This document shows, in pieces, positions 35,436 through 61,668 of a stretch of DNA of 64,000 bases (within the stretch, counting starts at the first letter, position 1; every line of letters begins with the position of its first letter). The stretch spans positions 307,001 through 371,000 of the forward strand of contig JAJGOT010000526.1 in NCBI GenBank assembly GCA_022457155.1. Direction: 5' to 3'. A program made the position numbers and the translations under genes. This stretch comes from Cladopsammia gracilis. Lineage: Eukaryota > Cnidaria > Anthozoa > Scleractinia > Dendrophylliidae. The notes under the pieces are model-generated. The model did no database searches, was not told where the DNA came from, and saw nothing but the letters and a program-made list of their open reading frames with translations.

Positions 35436-35615
35436 AGTAGTGGTTGGGGAGGCGGTCAAATACGGTTTTTAGATCCCTAAATAAACCGCCAAACGCCCGA
35501 GTTACCGGGGCCCCAGGTCTCATTGCATTCGCCCTGGGGGCCCGGTAACTCGGGCGTTTGGCGGCTTATTTAGGGATCTAAAAACCGTATTTGACGCGCC
35601 TCCCCAACCACTACT
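35436..35615. repeat. Terminal palindrome (left end) of element A
   Basis: AGTAGTGGTTGGGGAGGCG pairs with CGCCTCCCCAACCACTACT. The stem is about 77 bp and includes CCGCCAAACGCCCGAGTTAC. The tip has about 26 bases and contains a small inverted repeat of its own (CCAGG/CCTGG), so a branched hairpin can form. Both outer arms read AGTAGT from the outside, the same start as element B. Confidence 0.88.
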
Positions 35616-42360: not shown

Positions 42361-42374
42361 CTATATACGTGTGT

Positions 42375-42551
42375 TTAATACTGAACAGCCTGCAGCTGCC
42401 TGTCCATGATGTTCATCTGTGAGTCGCTGATGGTGTATATGTGGCAGTGCACTTTTCCCGAGCCGGAGGTTGTCCTTTCGATCTCAAGATGTACGCCATC
42501 CTTTGTGTTGACGAGGCGTTGACCGTTGCTGTGTAGGGTTGTATCAGCCAT
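42375..42551 (-). pseudogene. 3' part of the element A capsid gene, left of the element B insertion
   Basis: 58 codons, from the codon directly after the TGATCT duplication (42552-42557) to the TAA at 42377-42375. They include LVNTKDGVHLEIERTTSGSG and HIYTISDSQMN. The frame is that of the 5' part at 61669-62730; the 6 bp duplication encodes exactly two codons, so removing B would leave one open gene. The ATG directly after the duplication looks coincidental. Confidence 0.8.
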
Positions 42552-42557
42552 TGATCT

Positions 42558-42884
42558 AGTAGTTAATAATAGATTATTCACGGACAAAACATCATTTCTC
42601 ACGCTCTCCCAAACGTAAGAAAATCATATCAAGCATTAAGCTAAAAATCCACAAAACCATTTTGAGAAACAAATCGCTATATTCTGCAGTTATTTCAAAT
42701 TTGATTTTAAGTTCTAATCAACGAACCAAATTCACCCCCAGTGTTAGCATAAGTAAATAAATTTATTTCAAGTTACCATTACCTTGCATTTTAGCTTATT
42801 GCTTGATATGATTTCTTACGTTTGGGAGAACGTGAGAAATGATGTTTTGTCCGTAAATAATCTATTATTAACTACCGCTGAAAT
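42558..42884. repeat. Left terminal repeat of element B (palindromic, 318 bp plus inverted flank)
   Basis: Positions 42558-42875 form an imperfect palindrome: AGTAGTTAATAATAGATTATTCACGG pairs with CCGTAAATAATCTATTATTAACTAC, with a stem of about 85 bp and a loop of about 150 bases. The arms differ at several sites, so orientation can be read. Bases 42875-42884 (CCGCTGAAAT) are the inverse of 61342-61351. Confidence 0.93.
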
Positions 42885-42902
42885 CCAGCAGAAAATTCTG
42901 GC

Positions 42903-43014
42903 AGCGGAAAATCTCTTCCAAAATTCTGGTAGCGGAAAATCTCTCCCAAAATTCTAGCAGCGGAAAATCTCTCCCAAAATTCTGGCAGCGGTAAAATCTC
43001 TCCTAAAATTCTGG
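42903..43014. repeat. Four 28 bp tandem repeats beside the left terminus of element B
   Basis: The unit is AGCGGAAAATCTCTCCCAAA plus ATTCTGGC, with one or two changes per copy (starts at 42903, 42931, 42959 and 42987). A partial copy lies at 42887-42902. They sit between the terminal palindrome and the first gene. Confidence 0.9.
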
Positions 43015-43061
43015 AGACGGCGGCGACGGTGGCGGCGGGAAAAGTTTCTCCCGGAAAGAAA

Positions 43062-43618
43062 ATGTCTGATTCCGAAGAAGAAGAAATTGATGGCACTCCT
43101 GAAATTATTCAAGAAACATATACAACAGGGCATTCTCGCAAAAATTCCAGACTGAAACATTTCAAAGATATCATCCGCAAAAATCAGGGAAAGAACCAAA
43201 TTCCACTCAAAGATCTCGAATTTTATCAAAAAGAAATTCTCTCCCAAATTCCCCGTGACGAAATCACCAAAAAAAAGTCAGGGAGTTTGTCAAAGCTTTC
43301 AAATGGAAAAAAGTCAATGGCAACGATCATGAAATTTTTAATCACATAACAGGTCACGACGGGAATGACTATGAGCACCTGGAAAAATTTCTCATTGACG
43401 ATTTTAAATATTTCTCACTGACATATGATGATCTTCATCCTAACAGAAAAAAGTTTCTCAATTTCAATCAAGTTCTTTTCGCCCTGTTGAAGAAGAACGG
43501 TTTCAATCCAAATGAAGATGATTTCAAGCTTCTTATTCTCCCATCAAAAAGGGCAGAACAAGAAAAAATAATCCAAACCATCTTCAAAAAATTAAATTGG
43601 AAAGAAAATGGACCTTGA
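43062..43618 (+). CDS. VLTF3-like viral late transcription factor, -1 frameshift at an A8 run
   Basis: The start is ATG 43062 (MSDSEEEEIDGTPEII) and the end TGA 43616-43618. The N-terminal frame runs through IPLKDLEFYQKEILSQI to the A8 run at 43269-43276. Continuing one base back gives EFVKAFKWKKVNGND, then HPNRKKFLNFNQVLFALL, and LLILPSKRAEQEKIIQTIF near the C-terminus. The order of a helical N-terminal module, an NRKKFLNFNQVL-type block and a C-terminal LPSKRAEQEK block matches poxvirus late transcription factor VLTF3-like proteins found in nucleocytoplasmic viruses and Polinton-like elements; this is recognition by eye. VLTF3-type factors activate late promoters. It lacks the TAAAATG start context of the structural genes. 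The gene after it starts inside its last codons (ATGGACCTTGA). Confidence 0.7.
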
Positions 43619-43967
43619 AAAAGCATCTTCCAACGAAGCTGAGCGAAGCGAAGCTGAGCGAAGCGAAGCGAAGCTGAGCGAAGCGAAGCCAGTGACCATG
43701 AAGATTGTTCCACATGCTCAGAGGAAGAAACAAGAAGCGAAGATGAAACCCCAACAACATCTGACGAGGAATTCATTGTCTCTGATTCGGAGATGAAGGA
43801 AGAAAGCGAAGCTGAGCGAAGCGAAGACACAATAGAACTCCTCTTTGAGTCATTCATCAATCTCCAAGAGGAACATAAGATTCTCAAAAATGAACTCCAA
43901 AAGCAAAGTTGCCTCCTCTGGGAAATCCACCGGGAATTGAAAGAAAGCGGAGCAAAGCGAAGCTGAG
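43608..43967 (+). CDS. Acidic, coiled-coil protein interrupted by GAAGCTGAGC repeats
   Basis: The ATG at 43608 overlaps the VLTF3-like stop. The first frame (MDLEKASSNE then AERSEAERSEAKLSEAKP) is built from the repeat and runs into basic sequence that ends at 43796. Another frame, open from about 43653 to TGA 43967, reads EDCSTCSEEETRSEDE, then TSDEEFIVSDSEMKEE, then TIELLFESFINLQEEHKILK and SCLLWEIHRELKESG, a plausible acidic then coiled-coil protein. I infer that the acidic frame is the original gene, that the repeat units (43633-43690 and 43805-43827) expanded inside it, and that one expansion shifted the frame. No family recognised. Confidence 0.45.
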
Positions 43968-43974
43968 CGAAGCG
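43633..43974. repeat. Interspersed GAAGCTGAGCGAAGC repeats
   Basis: The core GCGAAGCTGAGCGAAGCG occurs three times in tandem at 43633-43690, once at 43805-43827 and once at about 43944-43974. It occurs again in reverse orientation at 46199-46226, inside the pX/protease overlap. The core is partly self-complementary around GCTNAGC. Confidence 0.85.
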
Positions 43975-44008
43975 GTGTTTTGAAATCCTGAATATGAATG
44001 TAAAACAT

Positions 44009-44965
44009 TTATATTCTGTCTAGTTTTTCCACATCGCTCAATGGAACCCAAGAATTGAATTTATCGGGATATCCTTTCCATTTAACGAATGCTTTCTTTT
44101 TCTTCTGGTCCCGGCGAATAACCTTTTCAATGCGGAAAACATCCTGCGTAGTAGGCGACAATTCTGCTTCATAAAACGATCCGGTGATTTTTTCTCCCAG
44201 CAGATCAACTAATTTATACGTTACAGGATTTGTGTTCAATATTTCGTCAATCACAAATATCTCCTCTGTCCAGTTCGGGGTGAAACCTTTGTCGAATATC
44301 TTTCGCTTGTATTTTGAAATTCTAACCCTGTCGCCAACTTTGAATTTTGCTGGGGCATGTTTAGCATAAATCATGTCGCCGTATAAATTAGCGAAAACCT
44401 TTTTCTCATTTTCCTGTTTGCTCGCCTCTGCGGGAGTCATCCGAATGCTCGAATGAAAACGATGATTATATTGATCCACTAACTTGTCTAGTTTGTCAAA
44501 ATAAATCGTATTATTGTTAGCAGAAAACATCCGGAAGAGTTTCTCCTTCATCGTCTTGTTCCAGCGCTCGACAACAGACGACTTTTCTTCATTTTCCGTT
44601 GTATACAATTTTATCCCATTCTTATTCAGGAGATCCTTCATTGTTCCATTGAAAAATTCACTTCCTTTATCAGTCCAAAGCATCTTCGGTTTTCGCGCTT
44701 TCGCAAATATGGAACGGAAAGCATCAGCCACTGTTTGACCTCGCTTGTCTTTCAGGGGGCGAATCCAACAGAACTTTGAGAAAACATCGATCACCATCAG
44801 GAGATATTTGATCCCTTTGTTCCACTTCGAAAATTTCCCCATCTCGACCAGATCAGCCGCCCAGATGTTGTCAACGCCATATGAAATGACTCTTCGTTTT
44901 GGGAAGCGCCGCCTGATTGGCTGGTGAAGTTCATTTGCCAGATTTTGAGCCCAGCCTTCACTCAA
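44009..44965 (-). CDS. Retrovirus-type integrase with C-terminal chromodomain (element B)
   Basis: About 318 residues, open throughout. The catalytic core shows AADLVEM (first Asp), LWTDKGSEFFNG (second Asp) and SSVVERWNKTMKEKL (Glu), with the expected spacing. An SH3-like KVGDRVRISKYKRK segment follows, then a chromodomain, VFRIEKVIRRDQKKKKAFV plus KWKGYPDKFNSWVPLSDVE. Chromodomains are known on Polinton integrases and may steer integration. There is no in-frame ATG at the 5' end: the frame opens at KKILSEGW inside the last codons of the PLA2-like gene, and a short N-terminal piece may be missing or depend on frameshifting. It would catalyse the 6 bp staggered insertion seen here. Confidence 0.88.
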   Translation of the reverse strand: MSEGWAQNLANELHQPIRRRFPKRRVISYGVDNIWAADLVEMGKFSKWNKGIKYLLMVIDVFSKFCWIRPLKDKRGQTVADAFRSIFAKARKPKMLWTDKGSEFFNGTMKDLLNKNGIKLYTTENEEKSSVVERWNKTMKEKLFRMFSANNNTIYFDKLDKLVDQYNHRFHSSIRMTPAEASKQENEKKVFANLYGDMIYAKHAPAKFKVGDRVRISKYKRKIFDKGFTPNWTEEIFVIDEILNTNPVTYKLVDLLGEKITGSFYEAELSPTTQDVFRIEKVIRRDQKKKKAFVKWKGYPDKFNSWVPLSDVEKLDRI

Positions 44966-45697
44966 AATCTTCTTCCGTTTTTTGGGGCACCCAAACCCAG
45001 TTTTTGTTTTGCATCAATCACGTTTCTTGCCAAAGCATGTCCCCACTGTCTTTCTTTCCAGGGAATCGCATCCAAAGCGGCAACCATTTTCCTGTCTGCT
45101 TTATTTTTACATTTGCGTGGATCCGCTTTTTTTGCGCAGACTGAATAATCAACATCGTGCTGCATAGCAACTGCGTCTGTTTTTCCCGTGGGTTGCTGCA
45201 TAATTTCGAGAATCTTTCCCTTTTCATCGAATCGGACTTGTTTTTCGAGTGGGTTATAAGGGCCTGTATAGTTATGCCCTGGGAGGGTGAAACCTTTCTT
45301 TGGTCTTGGTAGTTTTCCAATTAATTTATGAACATCCAACCCACCGCCATCCAAATCTGCTCGATCTGTCTTATATTTTCTGTTTGGCCTAATCGCCGTA
45401 CTCAGTTGATTGAGCATATCGGAAGAGGTTTTGGCAAGAAATGGTTTCATCTTGTCCAGGGTAAAATCCAATGCTTTCTTTTGAGCCTTTTTGTTTCGCA
45501 ATAATTCACTAGCTCCATAACGGCCCATTTGAACTGTTTTTTTTCCTAACCAAGGCAGTGCATGAGCCACGCCAGTCAGCGCAAGTTCACCAAAGCCCCC
45601 ACCTTGTGAGGGCAGATTCAGTTTCCCGAACTTTTCACAAATCTTGTTTTTTTGATTCCACAGGAAGCGCAATGGCAAAACCACATCTTTCTGTCAT
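44962..45697 (-). CDS. PLA2-like protein (element B)
   Basis: The long frame carries SQGGGFGELALTGVAHALPW near the N-terminus. The C-terminal half has a phospholipase-A2-type calcium loop (NYTGPYNPL) and the His-Asp dyad motif AMQHDVDYSVC. A similar module in parvovirus VP1 proteins breaches endosomal membranes, so an entry or virion role is inferred. The best ATG (45697-45695, MTERCGF) is in another frame and meets the long frame within GGTTTTGCC (about 45676-45684), so there is probably a one-base lesion near the start; otherwise initiation is non-ATG. It ends at 44962, overlapping the integrase frame by 4 bases. Confidence 0.7.
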
Positions 45698-45771
45698 TTT
45701 TTGCGGTCATATATCCAGTTGGTTTCACGCATTCAGTTTGTTTTTTTCCTTCACGCAATATGACTTCATTT

Positions 45772-46191
45772 TCAATCGAAATATTCTTTTATGAATTTTT
45801 CATTTTGCGTCGTATCAGTCAGACTGAGAGGCTTGAGAATATCATAGAAATCTTTCCCCTGCGACCATTGATGGAGGAAATAAAGGCAATAATACCCGCA
45901 AAGGACACTGTTGATGTTTTGATACTGACTGCTGTTCCAAATCACCGGTTTCGCGCTTTTGAATTCTTGGGGGAATCCCATTCCAAAACTATCGAAATAC
46001 CACGTGAATTTCCCAGAGGGAGCGCAGCACACCCAATGAGTTCCTGCATTTTTGAGTGAATCAAGATTGATGATGCAGGGGCTGTGTTTTTGGGGCATGA
46101 ATTGATCTCTCGCAAAGATGCCTTTGAAATTGGGAATTTTCAGAAAATCAATCCACTTCATGAGATCAACATTGTTCAGGGGTTTGTTCAC
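45772..46191 (-). CDS. Adenain/Ulp1-type cysteine protease (element B)
   Basis: The catalytic residues are clear: His in NAGTHWVCCAP, Asp in WYFDSFGMGFP and Cys in NSVLCGYYCLYFLHQW. This is the adenovirus-type maturation protease family that Polintons encode to process capsid precursors. The conserved region begins at NKPLNNVDLMKWIDFLKIP. The nearest possible start is GTG 46191; no ATG precedes that block in frame, and upstream codons are the shadow of the pX-like gene. A GAAGCTGAGC repeat lies exactly at this junction and may have displaced the original start. About 139 residues from the GTG. Confidence 0.8.
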   Translation of the reverse strand: MNKPLNNVDLMKWIDFLKIPNFKGIFARDQFMPQKHSPCIINLDSLKNAGTHWVCCAPSGKFTWYFDSFGMGFPQEFKSAKPVIWNSSQYQNINSVLCGYYCLYFLHQWSQGKDFYDILKPLSLTDTTQNEKFIKEYFD

Positions 46192-47060
46192 GAATTTGGG
46201 TTTCGCTTCGCTCAGCTTTCGCTTCAAAGAATCGCCCCGAGAATTGGGATGTTGTTGAATGGACTTTTCGATCCCAGCAGAAGTCCCTCTCCTTTTTTTG
46301 ATTTTTTTTACCCATCCCAACAGTTTTTCGTCCCCAGTTTCCAATAAATGGGGGTGGTTGAAACGGATGCGCCCCCAATCTTGGCGCTCCCTTTCCTTTT
46401 GGGCGTCCAACTCTTGGCGCTCCTTGCCCTTTTGGTCGGCCAACGCGTGGCGCTCCCTTCCCAAACATGTTTTTAACCATGTCAAGTGCCAGTGGAATTC
46501 CGATGGAAGCCAGCACAGTTCCCAACAATCCACCAGATTGTTTTGTTGATGGTTTCATCACCAACTGTCCTCCTGATTTCAGGGCAACCAAAATGTCATG
46601 TTTCTGTTTATTTGTCAACAGATGTTTATTGTCAATCAGTTTCTGAATTTTATCTTGGGGAATGAGAAACCCACCTGTTTGTCCCCCTTTTCCACTTATC
46701 TTTTTCACAACTTGACTCGCTCCTTCACTCGCCAAACCAGCCAATGCTGACAGCCCAAGTGTTTTAGCCAGGGTAGGCGCTAGGGAACGAGCCAGGGGAA
46801 CAATAGCAGAGAAAAGATTTCCACCTTGTTTCATCACTTTTCTGATTTGCATTTTCGATATCTTTAGCTCAACTCCCTTTCCCAAAGCTGCAGCCTTGGC
46901 AATTCGTTTCTTTTGATTGGCTGTTAGCATCAGTTCATCACTTCCGCTTGTTTGATTTTTTTTAACCTCAGGGTGACAGGAGTGTTTGTTCTGAATGCTT
47001 TTCCAAGCTTCTTTTTTTGCCCTTCCGACAGATTTACTTTATATGGGTGATATGTTGTCA
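46166..47060 (-). CDS. pX-like core/minor capsid protein (element B), -1 frameshift at an A8 run
   Basis: A first short frame starts at ATG 47060 in TTTAAAATG (MTTYHPYKVNLSEGQKKKLG) and stops after 43 codons. A one-base backward shift in the A8 run (T-run 46956-46963 on +) continues it as QTSGSDELMLTANQKKRIAK into the frame ending at 46166. The remainder holds KISKMQIRKVMKQGG and hydrophobic SAIVPLARSLAPTLAKTLG. Then come IPQDKIQKLIDNKHLLT, a region of GAPRVGRPKG repeats, and PFQPPPFIGNW. The basic, repeat-bearing build and position before the major capsid gene match the pX/pVII-like proteins of adintoviruses and Polintons, thought to be virion core proteins. The C-terminal 20 residues include the GAAGCTGAGC repeat. 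Confidence 0.65.
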
Positions 47061-47090
47061 TTTTAAATGACAACATATGTTTTCAGCCTC

Positions 47091-48383
47091 TTACACGATA
47101 ACCAGTTCATTTCCAATCTTATCAATTTTCACTTCTTCTTCATAGAGAACCACTGCATGTACATTGAAGTTTGCAGCTGCATCTGCGTTCAATCGATATC
47201 TGAATATCAACTGCTTGGGATCTCTTGTTGGTTTTTCGCTTTGGAAGGAGAGATCGAAGTAGATCAACGGGAAATCTCGGTCGAAATTGGACAGATGCAA
47301 TTGTGTCCCAGTGTTGTAGTCATTTTTCCTCATTGCATAAGCCATGACATCCTGGAAAATCCGCACTTTGCTTTCACTGTCATACTCTGTTTCCGGGTAG
47401 AAAACTCCGTTTCCATATTCCAATCGACAGTTCAACAAGGATGAGTTTGCATCTGCCTCATTCAGCTTGAAAGTGTCCATCAGATAGGGATTGTCTTCTG
47501 CAGGGTCGTCATTAGGTGGAGCGGTTCTTTTCAGCCAGACAAAAATATGCCGCACATTGTCAATGCTCGCTGAGATCTGGAAGAATCCTGATGATGTTGC
47601 GGGAGCAGATTGCTGATACATTTCCCTCAGATATTTCCATTGCGTTTCTTTTAGGAATGAGCTGACAAATTTGTCATAAAGTGAATCTATGGGAGTCAGT
47701 CTTGGCACCCAAAGCAGAAATCGATTCACAACAACTCTTCCAGCATCAACGCCGTTTGCCATATGAATGAGTTCCCCATCACTTTGAAGCTCAATCTCGA
47801 ATTGCAGCTGCATGGGAACCAACATCTTATCCTCCAACTCTTCGAAAAAGGAAAAACGATTCAGAGGAATGATCGTGTTGACGTTCCGAGGACCACCGTT
47901 TCCATTGTTTTGAACTGCTTGAGTTAGCGCCCGGCGAGATTCAAATCCAGCATTCGCAGCAGCATCATTTATTGCACGCCCCGTATCCAAATACCAGAAG
48001 CTGTTCTTGGCGACTGATCTGCTGAAGTCGTCAGAGTATTCTAACAAATTCTTGACGAAACAGACCTTGTGAAGATTATCACTATCATAAACAATCTTTC
48101 CTGCAGATTTAATCGTCAGGTGTTTAATCAGGGAATGAGCCCCATTGATCACTGTGATTCTGTCAGCTGCGGCATATCCGTTACCATCTGCTATTTTCTG
48201 GAGTTGAAATTGCACCTCGAAATAAGCATTATACCAATCATAGAATGCCGATCTGTCATTTATTGTGAATTTATACCCATTTTTCATTTGGTGCTGGGCA
48301 TTGGCTGGAGCCCTGATTGTGTCATCCAGCTGGAAGCGCACTAATTCATTTATTTGAAGATATTCATTCGATCGAAAAGCCAT
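47091..48383 (-). CDS. Major capsid protein, double-jelly-roll type (element B)
   Basis: A 430-codon intact frame starts at ATG 48383 within CTAAAATGG. It contains MAFRSNEYLQINELVRFQLD, a middle block FSFFEELEDKMLVPMQLQF, and a C-terminal IYFDLSFQSEKPTRDPKQL then FRYRLNADAAANFNVHAVV. Its length, beta-rich character and place between the pX-like and minor capsid genes fit the Polinton major capsid. The assignment comes from family resemblance and synteny; a structure prediction would settle it. It is one of the few genes in B with no lesion. Confidence 0.75.
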   Translation of the reverse strand: MAFRSNEYLQINELVRFQLDDTIRAPANAQHQMKNGYKFTINDRSAFYDWYNAYFEVQFQLQKIADGNGYAAADRITVINGAHSLIKHLTIKSAGKIVYDSDNLHKVCFVKNLLEYSDDFSRSVAKNSFWYLDTGRAINDAAANAGFESRRALTQAVQNNGNGGPRNVNTIIPLNRFSFFEELEDKMLVPMQLQFEIELQSDGELIHMANGVDAGRVVVNRFLLWVPRLTPIDSLYDKFVSSFLKETQWKYLREMYQQSAPATSSGFFQISASIDNVRHIFVWLKRTAPPNDDPAEDNPYLMDTFKLNEADANSSLLNCRLEYGNGVFYPETEYDSESKVRIFQDVMAYAMRKNDYNTGTQLHLSNFDRDFPLIYFDLSFQSEKPTRDPKQLIFRYRLNADAAANFNVHAVVLYEEEVKIDKIGNELVIV

Positions 48384-48389
48384 TTTAGA

Positions 48390-48777
48390 TTATTTTTTTC
48401 TTTTCCGAGGCATCTTCGCTCCCTGTCCAGCGATCAACCTGCTCACTATATCATTAGCAGTTTCTTCGGTGGGTTGGTTGGGGCCGAGCGGGTTGTTTTT
48501 TGGAGGAGGGTTTCCCCTTTCTCATATTTCCCAGTTTTTTCATGATCAAATCACCAGATTTTTCAACTGCTTTTTTGCCCAGTTTTTCTCCAGCGTGAGA
48601 AATTCCTGATCTTAATGCTTTTTTCGCAATGGGTTTTGCGAATTTCTTGAAGACGGCTGATGCCACTGCTCTCATTGGTTTGAAAATATTGTCCACAATG
48701 ACACCTGTTCCTTTATGCCGATAAACAAACCGTCCTAATTTGGGGTTATAATAACGAGTAAATTCATAACTTTTCAT
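48390..48777 (-). CDS. Small basic virion-type protein (element B), frameshifted at an A6 run
   Basis: It starts at ATG 48777 in AATAAAATG (MKSYEFTRYYNPKLGRFVYR), followed by KGTGVIVDNIFKPMRAVASA and a basic amphipathic helix region with SGISHAGEKLGKKAVEKSG. The frame stops at 48454, but a +1 change in CCAAAAAACAACC (about 48496-48501) continues through NPLGPNQPTEETANDIVS to a basic end, KMPRKRKK, and TAA at 48390. That stop is 7 bp upstream of the capsid ATG. Probably a minor capsid or core protein; function not known. Confidence 0.55.
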
Positions 48778-48781
48778 TTTA

Positions 48782-49539
48782 TTACCTTTTCAAGATAAGC
48801 GAGAACGCTGTATCAGCTCCATTCAAATCAACAACCCTTCTTTTCCCATCTGTGATATAAATCCGAATGGTGCTTATTGTGTTTTTATTCACAGGGCTGA
48901 ATGTTACTCTCATGGGTTCCAGAGTAAAACTATATGATGGTCGCAGAACAGATGTTGAAAAGGAATAAATGATATCACTCTCTTCTCCATCAACAAGCGA
49001 ATCACTTGTCAGATCACAATGAACGTTTAACATATCAGTATCTTGACTAAGGTTTGGAAATCTGGGGCCAATGTTGACTTTATCTTTCAGAATCTTTTTC
49101 TCAAAACCAATGAGATCGTTGAAATTGGATTGGTTGAGATCAAGCTGATAATTTTCTGCCAGTGTGATTGTTACTCTGAAGGTTGTGGGAGAGAAAGCAA
49201 GATTGATTGGGAAAATGTCAGCTTTTCAAAATTCTTTCACCACTGTTGCTTTTTGAATAAAGTTATTCATCCCCTCATATTCCCAAACTCCAGCTGGGAA
49301 GGCGATATCGGAAAATGTTTTCCCACCGTCAGAGCTGAACCTGATCAGTTGATTCTGGCGGTCAGCATTGATGTTATACCACTAAAACTCATATTGATGA
49401 CTCGACTCAACCCAACAACATATTGGGAATTTGGATCCAAAACAATGGGCCGCTTGTATTTTGTTGTGAAATTTTCTGGTTTGTTTCCACCAGTCTTGGC
49501 GGAAAAGGATGATAGGCGAATTTCTCTTTCGATTTCCAT
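48782..49539 (-). pseudogene. Candidate penton/minor capsid protein (element B), one frameshift and one TGA
   Basis: It starts at ATG 49539 in CTAAAATGG (MEIEREIRLSSFSAKTGG), overlapping nothing and one base after the upstream stop. A one-base lesion near 49379-49386 (TTTTAGTGG) leads into NQLIRFSSDGGKTFSDIAFP. An in-frame TGA lies at 49226-49228, and the frame resumes as KADIFPINLAFSPTTFRVTI through to a C-terminal TDGKRRVVDLNGADTAFSLIL ending at 48782. The three pieces add up to about 250 codons of beta-rich sequence, the size of a single-jelly-roll penton. Penton identity is inferred from size, composition and position next to the major capsid gene. Confidence 0.55.
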
Positions 49540-49540
49540 T

Positions 49541-50532
49541 TTAGAGTTTGAAATAGTTTTTAAAGAGCTTGTCATGCTGGGATCTGTTGATGGCCCCCTC
49601 TTTCAGGAGAAGATCGAGAATGCCAACTCCAGTATTTCTGATGTTGATGTTTGTATTCCCAGCAAGAATGGAGTCAACGATGACTTCAAGTTTCTGGAGA
49701 AGATCTGTGGGGTTGGCGAAAAAACGAACATTTCCACCTTTTTTTCTTATTCCCGAGCCTTGAAATAATGCGTCTGCTTTCTTTCTATAATGATGTATGT
49801 AAGCAGTTAATGCTTTACTTGAACGATCTATTCCTTGATGTTGTATCTTCCTTTGCTTTGAAGTTATTTCACCTTTCATGAACTTTTTGGTCCAAGCAGC
49901 TTTGTAACCTTTTAATTGATTTCTTCTATGGATTGCCTCAGCTATAACGTTTTTCCGAAGATATTTTTGTTTCTGGGCTGACGATAACGCTGAAGAACCA
50001 AGGGTTATGTGTGTGTGGATATTCAAGTTAGCTAGCAATTTATCAGCTTCCTTTTCATCCTCTCCGCTTTCTTCCTCCTCTTCATCACCCGGTGCCAGAG
50101 CATAATCAGGAGATGGATCTTCTTCATATTCAGGTGGGGCGTCAGCGGAGCTGGATTCACCTCCTATCTCTTTCATTATTTCTTCATATGTTGGCGGTCT
50201 TGCTGGGATTTGTTTAGCTGCTTGCGGCGCAACAATCTCATCATCAAACAAACCACCCACATCCATATCTTCAAATGGGTCGACTTCGGGGAGATAATCA
50301 ATTTCTGCTGGTTTGGCTTTTCCAACTTTCTTTTTCCGGAATTTTAGGCAGTGGCCCCAAATTCGACGCAATCATCCAGTTTCGATGTGACTGGCTTGAA
50401 CATTTTTTCAAACCCGATTTGATTTGTTTCTTCACCCAACTTTTTCCGGGTGATGGTATCATGAACAAAGTTGATTTTTTTACCCAAAGCAGATTTGCTT
50501 TTGGCCATTTCTTGCCATTTCAATAAACTCAT
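49541..50532 (-). CDS. PPxY-bearing virion-type protein (element B), frame disturbed near 50340-50390
   Basis: It starts at ATG 50532 in ATATAAAATGAG (MSLLKWQEMAKSKSALGKK), followed by INFVHDTITRKKLGEETNQI. The first frame stops at 50344 and the next frame takes over near 50360-50400, so one or two small indels lie there. The body has two PPxY motifs, RPPTYEEIMKE and DAPPEYEED, in an acidic linker (GDEEEEESGEDEKEAD). The C-terminal region is basic and helical and includes FMKGEITSKQRKIQHQGIDR, GNVRFFANPTDLLQKLEVIV and NTGVGILDLLLKEGAINRSQ. PPxY motifs recruit host Nedd4-type ubiquitin ligases, as in adenovirus protein VI. Minor capsid function is inferred. Confidence 0.6.
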
Positions 50533-50598
50533 TTTATATCCCAGAAACACAAATTTGGGATGTAGAACAAGATGTAGAACATGATGTTCATAAATAAA
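50533..50598. promoter_or_regulatory. Divergent late-type promoter region between the PPxY gene and the ATPase gene
   Basis: A 66 bp gap separates two divergent starts, each in a TAAAATG context: TATAAAATGAG on - at 50532 and AATAAAATGAAG on + at 50599. It also contains a near-repeat, GGGATGTAGAACAAGATGTAGAACATGATG. The TAAAATG context recurs at eight starts in the element. Confidence 0.45.
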
Positions 50599-51231
50599 AT
50601 GAAGATCCCAAATTATGATTGCCATGATCCAATCACAAATTTCCAACAACTTCACCCTTTCATGCCGGATCGAACTTTCAGAATGTTGATCTGTGGCCCT
50701 TCAGGATCGGGGAAAACAAATGTTCTCCTGGATATGATTTTCCGCTTGCTCGTCTACGATAAAATCTATCTCTATGCGAAAAATCTTGACCAATCCAAAT
50801 ATCAGCATCTGCTGAAAACGTTTCGCCCGATCAGCAAAGAAGCTGGGTATGACGTCGTGGAAGCATCCTCAGATGAAATCATCCCAGTTTCGGCATTGAC
50901 AGGGGAGAATCAAAAGCTGGTTGTTTTCGATGATTTTGTTTCCGAAAAGAATCAAAAGCCATTGATTGATTATTTTATCCAGGGCAGACACAACAATTAC
51001 TCTGTGATTTATCTTTCGCAAAGTTATTTCGGAACACCAAAAGATATCCGCCTGAATTGTTCGCATTTTTGCATTTTTGAATTCCCAAGCAACAAAGAAA
51101 TTACGGCGATCTGTAGGGAAAACAATGTCAGCAAAGAAGATTATGTGAAGGCAACGCATGATCCGTTCTCTTTCCTGTATGTGGATAAGCCGAGGAAATT
51201 CATTGCCAAAAATTTTGATGAAAGCATTTAA
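50599..51231 (+). CDS. FtsK/HerA-type (A32-like) genome-packaging ATPase (element B)
   Basis: The start at ATG 50599 (MKIPNYDCHDPITNF) fits the TAAAATG context better than the ATG at 50581. Walker A is ICGPSGSGKTN and Walker B is KLVVFDDFVSE. The sensor-type region is FIQGRHNNYSVIYLSQSYF, with a final FLYVDKPRKFIAKNF. At about 210 residues it has the usual size for Polinton and adintovirus packaging ATPases, which pump DNA into the capsid. Intact. One base separates its TAA from the fibre-like gene's ATG. Confidence 0.88.
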   Translation: MKIPNYDCHDPITNFQQLHPFMPDRTFRMLICGPSGSGKTNVLLDMIFRLLVYDKIYLYAKNLDQSKYQHLLKTFRPISKEAGYDVVEASSDEIIPVSALTGENQKLVVFDDFVSEKNQKPLIDYFIQGRHNNYSVIYLSQSYFGTPKDIRLNCSHFCIFEFPSNKEITAICRENNVSKEDYVKATHDPFSFLYVDKPRKFIAKNFDESI

Positions 51232-51232
51232 A

Positions 51233-53039: not shown

Positions 53040-53545
53040 TCTTCTCCCAAAAAAATGAAAGCGAGTCGAAAAAAAGCATCTTTGGTTTCAATCACATTGA
53101 CCCATGCATTGGGGAAGAAAAACTGGAAGAGATCAAGCAACTCTTCCGATTTTACTACAAAAGATTCTGGTGCCTGAAACGAGCTCATTGCCATCTCAAA
53201 CGCATGAATCTTTTGGTGAACATGACATCGTCAGCGCTGGTTGCAACTGGAGCAATCGCAGGAGCAGCAACAATGAATCCCATCATTTTGGGAGTGATTT
53301 CAGGTGCAGGATTGGTCGTCAAAACAGTGAATGAAATGAAAAACTGGCAAAGCAAAATCGAAATGACAAAGTTTGCTTTCACAACCTACGAGAAAACATT
53401 GACTGATTTGCGTTTTGCCTTGAGGAGTGGAAAATTCGAAAGAAGTGAATTCCTTCCTGCAATGGAGGCGGTGGATGGGATTGTGATTGATTTGGGGTTG
53501 GATTTGGAGAAATTTGAGAAAAAGTATGATTTGCTGTTTGAGTGA
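53036..53545 (+). CDS. Membrane protein of unknown function (element B)
   Basis: It starts at ATG 53036, overlapping the fibre-like gene's TGA (ATGA), which suggests coupled translation or a shared transcript. 169 residues: a charged N-terminus (GEEKLEEIKQLFRFYYKRF), then a hydrophobic, Ala/Gly-rich hairpin (TSSALVATGAIAGAATMNP, IILGVISGAGLVVKTV), then a long helical C-terminus. Two closely spaced membrane helices recall holin- or apolipoprotein-L-like pore formers, but I cannot assign a family. Confidence 0.6.
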   Translation: MIFSQKNESESKKSIFGFNHIDPCIGEEKLEEIKQLFRFYYKRFWCLKRAHCHLKRMNLLVNMTSSALVATGAIAGAATMNPIILGVISGAGLVVKTVNEMKNWQSKIEMTKFAFTTYEKTLTDLRFALRSGKFERSEFLPAMEAVDGIVIDLGLDLEKFEKKYDLLFE

Positions 53546-53646
53546 TTTTTCATTTCTGGGAAATGAAAGATAACTCAGTCGTTCTTGATGAATAAGACTC
53601 GCACCCAGTCTTGCTGGCTCGCCCAACGATCGGGTTTTACTTTAAA

Positions 53647-54867
53647 CTACCATTGCCCTGCTGGGAGATAATGATTAAATGATTGTTTATTGGGAAAATA
53701 TTCATAACAGCGATTGTAAAAGAACTGAGCAAATTCCTCATAATCTTTCACAATGCCATAGTCAAATGTGTCTCTATTGAATATCACTTGCTTGTCGTTT
53801 TCTCCAGCAAATCTGTCCACACCTTCATCTTCCCATGGAATGAATCCACTGAAGGTGTCTAGCACGCTTTTCCAAACAGCTATGCGATTGCGCCTCCAAT
53901 CTTTCTCTGCTGCAGCCTCTTCTGCATTTTCTTCTGCAATCCTCCTCGCCAGATTTTCATCTATTTCCTTTTCTCGTCTTTCTGGTTCGAGAGTTGATTG
54001 GTTCAAGTTCATCGCCGATTGACAAAGAATTTCTGCAAAAGATTCCTCCTCTGCTTCTGGAGAAGGAGACAGAATTCGCTCTTCTTTTGGTTTGCGTGGA
54101 TAGGGAATGGGTGGAATTCGCGCTTCTTTTGGTTTTCGCGGTTGGGGAATGGGTGGTTGGGGAATTGACACTTTTCGTTTTTGCGGTTGGGGAATGGGTG
54201 GTTGGGATTTTCGTGGTTGGGGAATGGGTGGTTTTCGTGGTTGGGGGATGGGTTTGGGAGGAAGAGATGGTGGTGTTGGTTTTTCCACTTTTTCCACTTG
54301 GAATTTTTCTCCATCGCTTCTCCGGCGGAAACTGTTTCTCCCACTTTTCAACGCATTTTGAATAGTTCTTGCATCAATGCCCAGCTTATTTGTAGCTGCT
54401 GACATGCTGGGGAAAGTTTTTGTTGTTGAAGATGAAATGATACGGACAGGAATGGACTGAATCTTCTTTGGAATGGGCGTTTCATCTTCCTCCCAAGGAT
54501 CTGTGAAACCTCCTTTTTCGAAGTTTCTGAACAGGAAGAATTTCTTTCCATCTTTCTTGACAAAACGATCTTCCCTGTTGAAAGCGGCATAGATTGCCTG
54601 ACGACTCACTCCAATCCACTTGGCCATTTCAGCCTGTGTTTCAAAGCTTTTCAGCGGTGGACCTTTGGGAGAATCACGAACGTCAAATCGAGCAGCAGTT
54701 TGATTCGCAACTCGGATTTCTTTGCCTTGGAAAGTGAAAACGTTTCTCTCTTCGTTGATTGCTTTGTTGAGACATTTGGGAGAGAATTTCATGAATCTGG
54801 CAAGAGCCGACTGTGAAGGAAATCTTTCACTGAGACGCTGTTGCGTGAAAGCATCAATCAAACCCAC
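53647..54867 (-). CDS. DNA-binding protein with three NUMOD1-like helix-turn-helix repeats and a proline-rich linker (element B)
   Basis: About 406 residues. Three modules share a serine/threonine-Q/A-x-x-A pattern followed by a second helix and an aromatic wing: FPSQSALARFMKFSPKCLNK (about residues 16-35), FETQAEMAKWIGVSRQAIYA (about 74-93) and FPSMSAATNKLGIDARTIQN (about 152-171). This is the pattern of NUMOD1-type modules seen with homing endonucleases and phage regulators. A linker repeats PIPQPRKP-type motifs at least five times; then come an acidic helix (REKEIDENLARRIAEENAEE) and a C-terminal domain with FSGFIPWEDEGVDRF and FAQFFYNRCYEYFPN. No nuclease motif is visible. The frame opens without an ATG (GTG at 54867); the N-terminus may be truncated by the tandem duplication upstream. 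Probably a replication or transcription regulator. Confidence 0.6.
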   Translation of the reverse strand: MGLIDAFTQQRLSERFPSQSALARFMKFSPKCLNKAINEERNVFTFQGKEIRVANQTAARFDVRDSPKGPPLKSFETQAEMAKWIGVSRQAIYAAFNREDRFVKKDGKKFFLFRNFEKGGFTDPWEEDETPIPKKIQSIPVRIISSSTTKTFPSMSAATNKLGIDARTIQNALKSGRNSFRRRSDGEKFQVEKVEKPTPPSLPPKPIPQPRKPPIPQPRKSQPPIPQPQKRKVSIPQPPIPQPRKPKEARIPPIPYPRKPKEERILSPSPEAEEESFAEILCQSAMNLNQSTLEPERREKEIDENLARRIAEENAEEAAAEKDWRRNRIAVWKSVLDTFSGFIPWEDEGVDRFAGENDKQVIFNRDTFDYGIVKDYEEFAQFFYNRCYEYFPNKQSFNHYLPAGQW

Positions 54868-54879
54868 ATTTTCTTGGGT

Positions 54880-55871
54880 GACAATTTTTTTGGATTTTTC
54901 TGGAGATTTCTTCTCCAGAATTTTTTTTGGAAATGAATTTTATTTCAAAACTTATTTTTGGGGTTGTGATTTTGATTCCGGAAAAATCTGAAACCGTCTT
55001 TTTTGGAAAACGATTTTTTTCCCAAAGTTTTACTGGAAAATAAAACCTCTGAAGAGTTCTATCCAGGAAAGAAGTTTTGAAATTTCAAAACAAAAAAAAC
55101 AAGAAATGAAAACAGGGATGAGATAAAAGGTTTTTTGAGGAGAGTGGAAAAGTTCAAAACTGTCAAAGAATGAATTGAAATTTGCTGGGAAATCGAGGGG
55201 AAAATGCGGCAACTCCCAACCTCCCTGTGCGCCAAATGACAACAATCAGTGAAAAGTGACAATCCCCACTGGGTTGAGAATATCCACCAGTGGTAAATGA
55301 CAAAAATCAACCTCCCTGGGTGACAAATGACAAATCCTGGAAAAACAGACTTGCACGCGTCCTGAGAGTGAAAATCCAAATTTCATTTCCCCCAATTTGG
55401 ACAGATTTTTGTTTTTCAGATTTTCAGATTTTTTCTGGAGATCTCTTCTCCAGAATTTTTTTTTGGAAATGAATTTTGTTTCAAAAATATTATTTGGGGT
55501 TATGATTTTGACACCGGAAAATTCTGAAATCGTCTTTTCTGAAAAACGATTTTTCTCCCAAAGTTTGCTGAAAAAATAAACCTCTGAAGAGTTCTATCCG
55601 GGAAAGAAGTTTTAAAAATTCAAAATCAAAAAACAAGAAATGAAAACAGGGATGAGATAAAAAGATTTTTGAGAAGAGTGGAAAAGTTCAAAACTGTCAA
55701 AGAATGAATTGAAATTTTCTGGGAAAAATGCAGTAATCCCAGTGACAAAACAACCTCCCTGTGTGCTAAATGTCAAAAACCAGTGAAAAGTGACAATTCC
55801 CACTCGGTGGCAAATGACAATTGACAACCCAAGTGGCAAATGACAAATGATTTCACATCCAAGATGTCAAA
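54880..55871. repeat. Tandem duplication of about 530 bp between two element B genes
   Basis: A block starting TTTTCTGGAGAT(T/C)TCTTCTCCAGAA (54897 and 55431) recurs about 535 bp later. Shared elements include CCTCTGAAGAGTTCTATCC, AATGAAAACAGGGATGAGATAAA and TTCAAAACTGTCAAAGAATGAATTG. Both copies end in short motifs built on (G)TGACAAATGACAA and CAACCTCCCTG. The copies have diverged by roughly 10%. No gene is evident in either strand. Confidence 0.85.
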
Positions 55872-56630
55872 TCAAACTTCGTCTTCATCTTCGTTTTCAT
55901 CCCTGTCCTCATACTCATCAAAAGCTGAGGCAGTTTGAACCATTTCCTCCACTAAAACCTCATCCACAATGGATGTGATGGATTTGACGTTTCCGCAGAA
56001 AAGGTGCTTGATTGAGAAAACTACTTGCCCGCGAAGTGGAATTCCAATGAGTTCTTTCTGTTTCAGAATAGGTTTTTTCTTCCCATTAACTAACTCCCAA
56101 AAACGGCAAGAGAAATCCGTCTTGGGGAGTTTGGAGGGATAAATCTTTGCATAAATCTTCTCCTGCTCAGATTTATCCACTTTTAAGAGAGCGAAATCTC
56201 CCTCACGGAATTTGGCACAAGATGGAGCAAGCTTTTTCACTTCCGCTTGTTTTTCCATTGCAGCTGAATTGAGATGTGTTTCCAATTCATGGAAAAAGGG
56301 GATGTTTTCTTCGGGGAGGTTGATTCCCAAAGAGAAAGAATTTCCTTCATGAGCAAATACTTTGAATTTTGTTTGAAGTTTCAGTTGAAGTCGTTGGTCA
56401 TTGTGGGAACATGGGAGCAGGTAAAAGGTGATCTTTCCAGCTGATCGCTTCACGGGATCTTGGAGAGTGATATCGGGAATGGAAATTTTTTCGGGATTCA
56501 TTTTCTTGGGTGAGATAAAAAATGATTTAAAACGCAAAAATCCATTTATCCATGAACTTGCGATCCTCTTCCGTTTTAACTGGGAGAAAACCAGTGGCCA
56601 TGTCAACAGCTTTTTGAAAGTTTCTTTCAT
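55872..56630 (-). CDS. Acidic-tailed protein, candidate single-strand DNA-binding protein (element B)
   Basis: The TTTAAAATG at 56630 follows the polymerase stop by one base; an internal ATG at 56501 (MNPEKISIPDITLQDP) may be the true start of the conserved part. The central region has a beta-barrel-like pattern (AGKITFYLLPCSHNDQRL, KFREGDFALLKVDKSEQEK, IGIPLRGQVVFSIKHLF). The protein ends in a strongly acidic tail (EYEDRDENEDEDEV). OB-fold-like strands with an acidic C-terminus are typical of viral and phage single-strand-binding proteins, and the gene sits directly after PolB. Family assignment is a hypothesis. Confidence 0.5.
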   Translation of the reverse strand: MKETFKKLLTWPLVFSQLKRKRIASSWINGFLRFKSFFISPKKMNPEKISIPDITLQDPVKRSAGKITFYLLPCSHNDQRLQLKLQTKFKVFAHEGNSFSLGINLPEENIPFFHELETHLNSAAMEKQAEVKKLAPSCAKFREGDFALLKVDKSEQEKIYAKIYPSKLPKTDFSCRFWELVNGKKKPILKQKELIGIPLRGQVVFSIKHLFCGNVKSITSIVDEVLVEEMVQTASAFDEYEDRDENEDEDEV

Positions 56631-56631
56631 T

Positions 56632-59600
56632 TTAAACCCCTTTCATCCATGCGATGTCTTCATCCGTCAACCCGCATTCTTTGTGAAATTTGGGATGAAT
56701 CCAAGTTGCATGATTTTTCATTTCGTGGAGTGGGATTCCTGTTTCCTCCACGGAAAAGAAATCTTTGTCTCCGATTGTGAAAAGTTTTTCTTTGACAATC
56801 ATTTTATTTAGCTTTTTTTCTTCTTCTTCAATTCTCCAATGGCCCCAAGCAAAAGTGCTAATTTTATCTGGAAGGATAAATCGCTTGTCATCATCCGCAG
56901 ATAAGGCAGTTTTATTGACTGTTTCTGAGAACATCTCGTGGTGATGGCTACGGATGAGATTCATGGTTCTCATTTGGCTTCTCCCGCTGAGAAGGCATTC
57001 TTTGAAGTCCTCATGGGTGATATGTTTCTTTATTGTTTGTTTTTTCACTCCCTTGCATTTCTTGTCTCCTCCAGAGCCAAACAACTTATATGAATAGAGC
57101 TTTGCTCGCAATCCAACAAATTCTTCAATTATTTTCCCCCCAGCTTCATCTTTCATGAGGCCGTTCACTTTTTTGTTTATGATTGGCATTCCTGAGCGAT
57201 GATCCGGGGGATAATTGGATGTGTCAAACATCTCCTTCACATCTGGTTTCAGATCCTGATAGACGTCTTTCGTTTCGATTTCATAGCACAATGAATCAGT
57301 ATCTGTGAACAACAGCTTGGCTTTCTCCCCGTATTTAGGCTTCATATATTCATAGTGAAACCTGAACATAAGTTCCTTTGATATTTCAAGGATTGACATT
57401 CCGCAGGGAATTGGTTTGTTGAATGTCATTTTCTTCCGCTTCATATGCATAGCGATGAGATTCTCGTCAAAGATTGTATGGTGTTGATAGGTGGGTTTAG
57501 CCGCAAGCTTTTCCGCAATCTTTCTTTCATTGACAAGTCTAATATCAACTCTCTTGCGGATATTTTCCATTGTTTTGCCGAATATTGCGTTATTCATGAG
57601 CTTGAAAAAGTCTTTCTCGAAGTCATTCTTCCCTGTTTGGCGGTGCTTGATGTTGAGTTGGATATATGATTTCAGCCACGGCTCTTCAGTGAATGATATT
57701 CCCCTGTGGATCTTAGTTAATTTTAATCCATGTTTCAGAGCTTGTTTCAGTGCTCTCCGATGCATGATGATGTGTTTCTTATCTCGCAGATTGGGGATTA
57801 ATTTCTCAACTTTCTCACAGATCACTCTCTCAGGGGCAAAGGGATAATCATTATGCGCATCATGAAGTTCTTTACGATATTCCAGATCCACTTCAAGCAC
57901 ACAGGGAATTCGGCGCCATCTCCTGAAGTTTTTCATCCAGCGAAAGTTTCCCGTTGGAAGTGGTTGAATCATCCCCCAAGAATATAAGGAGTTCTTATCG
58001 AGATAGAGAATGTATTTCGTGGGTTGCGTTGGGTCATATTTATCTCCCATATATGGATTGTTCGCTTTACCGTGGCGGTTGGATATCATTGAAATGCCAC
58101 CACGGATTCCCTTCTCGAAGAACAGGAGCATATCTGGATCATTCAACAATTCAAGCTTTGCCCCTGATTTTTTCAGACCCGCGTCGAATGACAAACCAGA
58201 GGCAGTATAATACCACGCTGGATCTAGTTGATAATTCTCCAGGCAGACATTGCGGAATTCTTCGAAAACATCTGCAAGGAGCATCACATCCGTTTTCAAA
58301 TAGAGATCGTGATATTCTCCTAAGTTGTTTATCTTCATTTTATCCCAAACATTTTTAACATGTTGATAGTCTTCATCGGATATTCCCGATTCATTAATTT
58401 GAGAATAGAATGCCTCCTTTGGCGGCAGTTGTGTTTCCTTGAATTTTTCAATTGAATCCATATAATCATAGGGATAGACTCCTTTTCTGGAAAGAAGCTC
58501 GGCTTTGTATCCAAATTCGTTCCTGGTTTCCTTCAGTTTATCCATGCCTGACTTTTTCAAATTAGCTGCCAGACTCTCCAGGGAAGAACCCATGAATTTC
58601 ATAGAATCGATGAATCTCAGTTCATGATTCATGTCTATGTTTTTACCCTTTTTGTTGATCCATTCTCCAATCTTGATCGTCTTTGAGAAGGATATATATT
58701 TTTCCTCATTGTTGGGGATGCATTTAATATTCCCAGGTATTTTGCCAAGGTTTTTAATGAAGAGATGAGCATCATATCCCGCAAGATTATGGAAAATGAC
58801 TGGGGTGAACTTTGGTTTCCGGAACTGCAGATTGCAACTATTATGTGCTGCGCCACGATATTTTCCTGTGAAGTGGCAATGATCCCGCACCTTTTTATCA
58901 GATTCTTCACCAAATTCTCCTTTGCATATCCAACAAACTGTGGTTGCTTCATATTCTTTCTTATCTTCCTTGGTGAAGATCATCTTCTTTCTGAAGTCAA
59001 ATTTCTTGTGAATATGTTTAATTGTTTCAATTAACTTCTCCACAAATATTTGTGCAACGTCATCATCCGCTGTTTTTACCCGAAAGAGCACTGGGGGTAA
59101 ATTCAAATCAACCCCATCCATGCCAACAACCTTGAAACAAAAGCCACATGGCGTGTGTTTTTGAAATTGATTTGTAAAACTGAGATTATTCCCTGGGGTA
59201 CAACCACTGATCGGTTCAGTGCATGCTTCAAAATCAGCGTAAATTACAAATGGAACTTTGATAAATCTAGTGTGATTTTCAAATTCCAAAATCGCGCCCT
59301 TTTTGGGCATTTCGACTTTTATCTCTTCAGTTCTGCAACACAGTTCTTCATGCTTAGCTAGGGTTGCTTCATCATAAAAACGATTGAGACAGTGTAGGCA
59401 AAAATGTTTGCGACTGACGTGATGATTAACTTGAGCTGAGAGAAGACGGCTTAAACTGTTAACAACAGCATAATGTTGGATTCCATCTTTCTCAAAAATC
59501 AGCAGGGTTATATGGCGTTGACGTTTTTTATGTTTTGAAATTCTCAGGGGATGAACCACTGATTCATACCCGAGAACATTAACAGCAATGTTTGGATTAT

Positions 59601-60557
59601 TTCTTTCAAAATGATCTATTTCCTTCAGGGGTGTTGGAAATGAAATTTTACCTCAATTTAAATCATCGGCTTGGGCTTTTAATTTTCCTGTGACTCTTTC
59701 AGGATGAATTTCACATGGATTAAGTGCCCTTGTTCCTGCCCATTTAAAGCATTGATTATCGTTATTCTGCATATTAGTGAGCGCTTTCTTCTTGGCAAGG
59801 AATGGAGGAAGAGGAATGTGAGTGCTCCCGCCGAGAGGTTTGAATTCAACCAGATGCAGTTCTAAATGATTTACGCGAACAAATTGCCAATTCGAGCCTC
59901 TCATTTGGAAAGTGGCAATGCGTTCAAGGATGACTGCTATCATGTCATTTAAAAGAGCAACGAGATCAGTCGCTGCGAGATTCATTTCTATTTCCGAATG
60001 GAATGGAGCATCGATCTCAATTATTTCCCCAGTTTGTAAATTCTGGCGTTTCATTCGACAGGATAGAATCACTTTGATTTTAGTGCCTCGATTAGCCTTG
60101 AGGATAGTCAGAAGTTTATCAGAAACTCGCTGAAAATAATCTCTTGGAGAAGTTCCTTTCACACCTTCAAAGTTGAACTGACGGGCAAACTTTTCTAACG
60201 CTGATATGGTTTCGTGAACTCCTATTTGTTGTTGACATAAACTGGTAACTTTGCGTTGAAAATCCGTGATCATATTTGAAGCCTTTTTCGCAAGAGTTTG
60301 AGGCGCGGCTTTTAACCAATTCCACCATGACAGGAAAGTATTGGAGGCTGTGGAGGAGGAGGTTGATATGGGGTTGGAGAGAGAACTGGTGTTGGAATAG
60401 GCGGCGTGGGTGAATCAATATTGACGGATGAAGTTGCAGTAATTAAACGTATTAAATCAGCCTTTTTTCTAGCGCGAGAGCGGCCGGGGATATTTCTTTC
60501 CCTGGCAATTTGTCTTAGTTCCTTAACTTTCATGCGTTCCATTTCTAATGAAAACAT
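56632..60557 (-). pseudogene. Protein-primed-type DNA polymerase B with N-terminal SAP-like domain (element B), one frameshift and one TGA
   Basis: The N-terminal frame (60557-60312) carries a SAP-like DNA-binding helix pair (MKVKELRQIARERNIPGRSR) and a proline-rich linker. A one-base change near 60325-60335 joins WWNWLKAAPQTL and the frame starting at about 60300. An in-frame TGA lies at 59653-59655. The main frame (59559-56632, 975 codons) has a zinc-binding FCLHCLNRF..H..LCC, Exo I (VIYADFEAC), an endonuclease VII-type insert (VCWICKGEF, RDHCHFTGKYRGAAHNSCN), Exo II (HNLAGYDAHLF), motif A (YLDKNSLYSWGM), motif B (LMNNAIFGKTMEN) and motif C (LFTDTDSLCYEI). This is the classic Polinton polymerase. 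The catalytic part is intact, but the upstream lesions probably prevent a full-length product. Confidence 0.85.
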
Positions 60558-61341
60558 AAAATAATTTTTTATTTTATGTTCTTAACTTCCTCACTCAACA
60601 TAACAGATCAATAAAAAAAGCAAAACTGTTGGCCAACAGAACCTCTCAAGGGAACACTCTCCTTCCACCACTTCTCCCACTCAGTTCCCTTGAGAGGTTT
60701 TTTTCATTTTTTTTCATTTTGTTTTTCATTTTTTTTCATTTTTTTATGCCACTTAGGGCTTGAGGCTGAACCAGCACTCCTGCCGTGAACTCCCCGTCAA
60801 CATCTGTCAACCTTCTTTCGAAGCGGTCATCGAACATGACTTAGCTCTACTCAACAACCCGACACCCTTTCTCAGGCCTGCAGTATATATATCATAGCCG
60901 CGGGGGTTTTTAGCTATGATATATATACCGGGTGATTGATAGGGATGAAACAGAAAGCGCCCGCTTTTTCTAACTGTTTCATATCCTATCCGCCACCGAT
61001 ATAATATATGATGCGAAAAACTATTATATAGAGATCAAAACCGCCACGCTTTCACATGTGGTAACTCTTTTACGTCCGCGTCTGCGCAAAACACAAGAAT
61101 GGTTAATAATTTTATGCAAGCAGGTGGCAGGTGCAAGCAGGTGTTTTACGCTTTCTTTTGTTTCTGTGAATTTCACTCCCTGCTTTCATCCTTCCTCGGC
61201 AGGATTCTACGCGAAAACAAAAACCCAAAACCCCGTGAAATTTTCGCGTGAACTCACATAAAGCGAACCCATTAGAACGAAATGAAACGACTCAGTGAAA
61301 CCGCTTCAAATTAACGGTAAGTCGCTTAAAGTCTAACGCTA
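60558..61341. promoter_or_regulatory. Right subterminal noncoding region of element B with two hairpins
   Basis: No gene is seen. Hairpin 1: AACCTCTCAAGGGAAC (60640-60655) pairs with GTTCCCTTGAGAGGTT (60684-60699), followed by T-rich TTTTTTCATTTTTTTTC, so it is terminator-like on +. Hairpin 2: GTATATATATCATAGC (60883-60898) pairs with GCTATGATATATATAC (60913-60928). The repeated words CTGTTTCATATC and (GA)TATAATATATGATG follow. This region faces the polymerase start and could hold its promoter and replication signals. Confidence 0.5.
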
Positions 61342-61668
61342 ATTTCAGCGGTAGTTAATAATAGATTATTCACGGACAAAACATCATTTCTCACGCTCTC
61401 CCAAACGTAAGAAAATCATATCAAGCATTAAGCTAAAAATCCACAAAACCATTTTGAGAAATAAATCGCTATATTCTGCAGTTATTTCAAATTTGATTTT
61501 AAGTTCTAATCAACGAACCAAATTCACCCCCAGTGTTAGCATAAGTAAATAAATTTATTTCAAGTTACCATTACCTTGCATTTTAGCTTATTGCTTGATA
61601 TGATTTCTTACGTTTGGGAGAACGTGAGAAATGATGTTTTGTCCGTAAATAATCTATTATTAACTACT
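61342..61668. repeat. Right terminal repeat of element B, interior in the same orientation as the left copy
   Basis: ATTTCAGCGG (61342-61351) is the inverse of the left inner flank, as in an ordinary terminal inverted repeat. The 318 bp palindrome that follows, however, matches the left copy in direct orientation, with one difference (GAGAAATAAATC against GAGAAACAAATC). The stem arms (CACGCTCTCC against its partner GGAGAACGTG) and the loop (CCCCCAGTGTTAGCATAAG) both show this. Confidence 0.93.

Follow-up and report, generated by a model that had tools for sequence, protein, structure and literature searches.

The replication of Polintons is assumed to be protein-primed and to proceed on linear molecules whose ends are inverted. 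The terminal palindromes of adeno-associated virus (AAV) have an arm-loop-arm-inner flank geometry, and in its 'double-D' junction a single palindrome lies between two inner flanks. LTR retrotransposons carry direct terminal repeats that are alike within an element, and solo copies of these repeats occur with an intact target-site duplication (TSD). In vertebrate Mavericks the ends are terminal inverted repeats of 46-1,447 bp, and the accessible sections of the paper describing them make no mention of hairpin, circular, palindrom- or direct repeat (PMC8097293). Human bocavirus, which belongs to a class of viruses with palindromic ends, forms head-to-tail junctions that are said, in the accessible part of the account, not to fit rolling-hairpin replication (PMC3087758). 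The accessible portions of the open-access literature surveyed, outside which the founding Polinton papers lie, describe no Polinton with direct terminal repeats or with palindromic ends.

The window (the whole stretch of DNA that was analysed, 64,000 nucleotides from the scleractinian Cladopsammia gracilis) contains a Polinton/Maverick-type element, element B, inserted inside another Polinton-like element, element A. Each end of B is a palindrome, X, followed inward by a short flank, L on the left and R on the right. B shares the arm-loop-arm-inner flank geometry with AAV and other parvoviruses, and the AAV double-D junction equals a single-X junction, R-X-L, found in the B family; however, B shows no flip/flop and is a double-stranded DNA element with an integrase and a relative of the family B polymerases (PolB). 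With LTR retrotransposons it has in common the within-element likeness of direct repeats and solo copies with a TSD, but it differs in being a DNA element whose repeats are palindromic. As far as the accessible sections on vertebrate Mavericks extend (PMC8097293), B and those elements share an integrase, a PolB-related ORF, an ATPase, the (AGT)2//(ACT)2 motif, a 6-bp TSD, a length of about 19 kb and inverted termini; whereas the vertebrate elements end in terminal inverted repeats, B has a direct repeat of 317 bp, and inversion is confined to the arms of this repeat and to 9-10 inner bp. The head-to-tail junction is also shared with human bocavirus, which, according to the accessible part of its description, differs in being single-stranded, in having unrelated genes and in its short linking sequence of 54 bp (PMC3087758). 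Within the same genome the family of element A has, as B does, terminal palindromes, covarying stems and a fixed loop orientation, but its palindromes are truly inverted and its terminal repeat includes 77 bp of inner flank, in contrast to the direct X of B. The presence of B, with direct, LTR-like palindromic ends, beside A, with inverted ones, in one genome offers a natural contrast for the copying of Polinton ends, and bears on how the ends stay alike and on whether a circular or concatemeric stage exists.

Boundaries and gene content of element B

The limits of B and its 6-bp TSD were set by means of the Maverick end motif (AGT)2//(ACT)2, as given in the accessible part of PMC8097293. The features of the two elements are as follows.

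35436..35615, + strand: left terminal palindrome of element A (AGTAGT...ACTACT)
42552..42557, + strand: left TSD of element B, TGATCT
42558..61668, no strand assigned: element B, Polinton/Maverick-type, 19.1 kb (integrase with chromodomain, Pox_A32-type ATPase, phospholipase A2-like domain, polymerase relative, end motif and 6-bp TSD)
42559..42875, + strand: left terminal palindrome X, 317 bp
42876..42884, + strand: left inner flank (L), inverted counterpart of 61342-61350
44009..44965, - strand: integrase (rve, E 4e-14) with chromodomain
44962-45684: phospholipase A2-like domain (PF08398), adjoining the B integrase
50581..51231, + strand: packaging ATPase (Pox_A32, E 5.3e-15)
56632..59559, - strand: family B polymerase-related ORF of 975 aa (homologues, and profile match to the element A PolB profile)
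58825..58974, - strand: endonuclease VII-like domain, residues 196-245 of the 975-aa ORF (PF02945, E 1.6e-5, 25.2 bits, cut-off 23.6)
61342..61350, + strand: right inner flank (R)
61351..61667, + strand: right terminal palindrome X, 317 bp, direct relative to left X
61669..61674, + strand: right TSD of element B, TGATCT
C588:378423-378594: right end of element A

Compared directly, the left and right X differ at 1 of 317 positions; with one of them reverse-complemented, the ungapped comparison gives 137 of 317. Both are palindromes, with 64-nt arms that are 97% complementary and lie 189 nt apart; pairing of the arms extends beyond a 1-nt bulge to ~88 bp, and the folding energies of the two copies have z-scores of -19.5 and -18.6 (100 shuffles each). 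A preliminary description of this DNA had the terminal palindromes matching directly with one mismatch, the inner flanks inverted and the orientation of X unambiguous. All of this holds for the 317-bp stretches and for the flanks at 42876-42884 and 61342-61350, and the arm mismatches, at offsets 20 and 45, occupy identical sites in both copies. The terminal 20-mer of B occurs four times in the window, against a mean of 0.00 in 100 shuffles. Between the two ends of B the outer arms match in inverted orientation over ~94 bp (94.7% alike), as do the inner flanks over 9-10 bp. In its outer arms B thereby has the terminal inverted repeats of a Polinton/Maverick, and the departure consists in the longer 317-bp repeat, which is direct. 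Searches for inverted terminal repeats only would report the short arms and overlook this longer repeat.

Element A spans window positions 35436-42557 and continues from 61675 on, with B interrupting it. When the flanks of B are joined by script, the empty site is an open reading frame across the junction, and the insertion is therefore exact. The PolB of element A lies at 37145-39457 (DNA_pol_B_2, E 2.6e-14), and PF03175 is given for its relatives.

A Pfam scan of the 975-aa ORF of B found no PolB match; comparison with the profile of the element A PolB gave a probability of 99.7% at 15% identity. Relatives of this ORF reach 64-65% identity and make up at least 7997 of the best 8000 candidates scored, and none of the 120 matches listed bears a name. 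The homologues are mostly longer than 975 aa. Four of four homologues scanned have the endonuclease VII match (three above the cut-off), so this domain is not specific to the direct-X arrangement. In a test for an adenovirus-like protease, 45772-46533 gave a weak match to Peptidase_C5 (E 0.014; 15.5 bits, below the cut-off of 21.3), and a jelly-roll capsid candidate of 430 aa picked by eye at 47091-48383 had no Pfam or PDB sequence match. Neither a parvovirus-type replication protein nor a reverse transcriptase was found by Pfam scan among the 16 element-B ORFs. Viral contigs searched with PolB, a PolB alignment, a capsid-candidate ORF and the terminal 20-mer yielded no relatives, and a scan of genome contigs placed PolB relatives on two short contigs (5.8 and 3.1 kb).

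Orientation of X among copies of the B family

Copies of B were sought in the genome of the window (878 Mb, 1469 contigs) with three queries, scoring the best 40 of 235 candidates for the left end, the best 40 of 328 for the junction locus and the best 40 of 238 for a diverged left end. The 46 fetched places comprise 21 left ends (X-L), 20 right ends (R-X), one junction and four places without inner flank, three of which are solo X with matching 6-bp TSDs and one of which is truncated. Together with the window's two ends and C1045, this brings the ends whose inner flank is readable to 44, of which 23 are left and 21 right, and not one is flipped. X is direct in 13 of 13 elements that have both a left and a right end (the window element, C964, C1443, C396, C757, C181, C1000, C1236, C261, C379, C1041, C1391 and C422). 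A 6-bp TSD was read by eye in all 13 (CAAACA in C261), and an 8-bp TSD was rejected because the 6-bp rule fits every one of them.

The direct orientation of X is hence a fixed trait of the B copies examined, and looks like a heritable family design rather than a random flip of one end. The preliminary description had proposed that one terminus was flipped, either by hairpin transfer or by recombination of the palindrome arms after insertion; both proposals run against the 44 unflipped ends and 13 direct elements. Instead of four end combinations at similar frequency, a single combination is found. Nor are all other copies truly inverted, the outcome set down there as counting against a flip, as X is direct in the remaining left-right copies as well. 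An isolated local inversion of the window copy was likewise rejected, since 12 other left-right elements are arranged alike.

Partners sought ~19 kb from nine left ends yielded one (C261), the partners in C379 and C1391 lying farther away; the ends of C1391 are 62 kb apart, and in C1041 ~400 bp separates X from the left flank. The unpaired ends number eight left and eight right, plus C1030, and two right ends (L040 and L041) that are a local tandem duplicate both stand in the count. In C1030:497129-514646 (L048, L073, L106-L108) two left ends face each other with the TSD AATAAT on both sides, and since the element has two left ends its X copies are inverted. Its right part consists of B 1-1460, then ~130 unmatched bp, then B 15652, and it looks as though a copy of the left end has taken the place of the right one.

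Likeness of paired X copies and single-X loci

The left and right X of one element differ by a mean distance of 1.49% (1 to 9 differences in 13 pairs), against 5.0-5.3% between elements, and 20,000 random pairings never matched the closeness of the true pairs. The true partner ranks first of 13 for 11 of the 13 left and 12 of the 13 right copies, and two pairs have a single difference in 316-317 bp. On the X tree nine of 13 pairs are sisters, two (C964, C261) are unresolved, and the members of two (C181, C1000) fall in different clades. Given that the X pairs are mostly closest to each other, in most elements the left and right X share a recent ancestor, in direct orientation. To judge from these sequences, the two X of an element are renewed from one template in direct orientation, in the manner of LTRs. 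By an argument from geometry, an end that is repaired by annealing to the opposite end of its own strand acquires inverted X, and direct X copies require homologous pairing of the normal kind, such as a circle or concatemer would allow. The A family shows inverted ends of the kind that panhandle repair on the other end would geometrically give, and no left-right B element examined does.

Solo X with a 6-bp TSD occurs at three of the 46 places (L038, L044, L046), which belong to no single supported clade. A single-X head-to-tail junction, R-X-L, is present at L025 on C1179, the one such case among the 40 scored of 328 candidates. Read from B 13971, this copy descends to the left end, with B 13290-11037 (~2.2 kb) unmatched, crosses one X and goes on from B 18793 to 14416. 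After B 14416 there follows an inverted right arm that starts from ~B 14038, has a 0.9-kb gap and ends in R-X and host DNA; this second, inverted right arm is 99.0-99.6% alike, and the far end is truncated. Solo X and R-X-L correspond to the pair of products that recombining direct repeats should leave. In its order of segments C1179 resembles a circularly permuted unit, although it is one case and a complex one; the junction can also be explained by rearrangement after insertion, and the solo X can come from recombination in the chromosome.

Terminal hairpins in the A and B families

Stem pairs of B were counted in 34 of 48 X copies (the 46 places and the window's two). Of 2858 cells 96.7% pair, and 12 cells are changed on both sides, versus 2.8 in shuffles, 500 of which gave no count that high, and 0-3 when the partners were slid. 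Four stem pairs show change on both sides, a number reached by 46 of 500 shuffles, and support for covariation in B is therefore moderate. The A-family stem, with a structure predicted from one row, gave by raw counts over 21 rows 1753 of 1762 cells pairing over 84 pairs, eight of which show two Watson-Crick types. The stems covary, moderately in B and clearly in A, and for this reason hairpins probably form.

In the A-family search the best 40 of 1042 and the best 40 of 2268 candidates were scored, and 20 and 12 places were fetched. Including the window element's own two, 34 A ends were examined, of which 31 (23 left, 6 right and 2 without a side call) have an intact loop. In all 31 the loop has the same orientation relative to the inner flank, with none flipped; two of the left ends (C927) share one flank and are probably duplicates. 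As regards the AAV-like ends of the preliminary description, the palindrome geometry is real and the stem covariation suggests hairpins, which probably form without flipping. Three A ends, L063 (C588:378594), L100 (C1041:615.87 kb) and L094 (C1074:35.2 kb), are without the outer arm and break near the tip of the hairpin, which would suit a cut or deletion at that point. The A end sequence is very abundant in the genome, with 1042 first-look candidates.

Maintenance of direct palindromic ends

We give a probability of about one half to the reading that X combines two functions: through its arms it would be an inverted end for the integrase, and as a direct terminal repeat it would serve a stage, which we infer, of head-to-tail circles or concatemers. 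The layout of the B family, with one 317-bp imperfect palindrome at both ends in fixed direct orientation (X-L ... R-X), would present inverted ends to the integrase and, as a direct repeat, would permit a head-to-tail circular or concatemeric phase of the element in which each junction holds one X, so that both ends could be renewed from a single junction X. A possible route is that the extruded cruciform is cut at its base and both sides are refilled; a cut along either diagonal would yield X-L and R-X. For this cut the polymerase's endonuclease VII-like domain would be a candidate, a speculative one. The more specific proposal that the B lineage replicates via circles or concatemers that hold a single palindrome at each junction and are resolved by the polymerase-fused endonuclease VII-like domain, X being inverted for the integrase and direct for circularisation, is a doubtful one; the stage and the role of the domain are both drawn from integrated genomic copies. 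Against the circle model stand the single, complex junction copy and the two pairs (C181, C1000) whose L and R copies fall in different clades.

The main rival to the circle or concatemer stage is gene conversion among X copies that are already integrated. One ancestral flip would have been followed by linear replication, with X kept alike by conversion after insertion and with solo X and the junction produced by chromosomal recombination. This account dispenses with a circle and explains the solo X and the chimeric pairs C1000 and C181; however, conversion must then operate in the majority of copies, the two pairs with one difference in 316-317 bp among them, and the nearby break points of C1179 (B 13971 versus 14416 and 14038) suggest one permuted unit. 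We regard it as possible, if rather unlikely.

Distinctly less probable is that hairpin ends are always resolved on the same strand, which would keep the loop from ever flipping, and that the two termini of a linear molecule are copied end to end from one another. Such resolution would explain why the stems of both families covary although their loops stay unflipped, and C1030 looks like a case of one end replaced by a copy of the other; but the geometry set out above stands in its way, as an end copied from the opposite end of its own strand carries inverted X and direct copies need ordinary homologous pairing. We consider it very improbable that X is an independent, short MITE-like element, mobilised by the integrase and flanking B like the arms of a composite transposon. 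The three solo X with TSDs, and the presence of both inverted ends in X, would suit such an element, but solo copies are few and belong to no one supported clade, and the inner flanks beside X are inverted repeats at both ends and not inner TSDs.

Parvovirus-like flip/flop, with hairpin transfer inverting either end at random and the window copy caught in a mixed state, is scarcely credible in spite of the AAV-like geometry, stable hairpins and stem covariation, as its random form is refuted by 0 of 44 B-family and 0 of 31 intact-loop A-family ends flipped and by 13 of 13 elements direct. Palindromes are hard to assemble, but an assembly error is the least credible explanation of all for 13 loci arranged alike, with distinct TSDs and with variants shared within pairs.

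Additional observations

A 28-bp tandem repeat occupies 42892-43014, immediately inside the left end of B. At C1023:2200000-2203400 (L051) a B-family right end and its flank are tandemly duplicated as a ~2 kb unit, the copies being 99% alike. To the left of A, window positions 32412-34675 hold a cluster of near-perfect short palindromes of 90-180 bp, which are probably MITE-like repeats; the palindromes at 32.4-34.7 kb were rejected as element ends because they have no AGTAGT motif, the one at 35.4 kb being the end of A. At 26876-30113 the ORFs of the - strand resemble, by eye, a tyrosine-recombinase (DIRS-like) retroelement.
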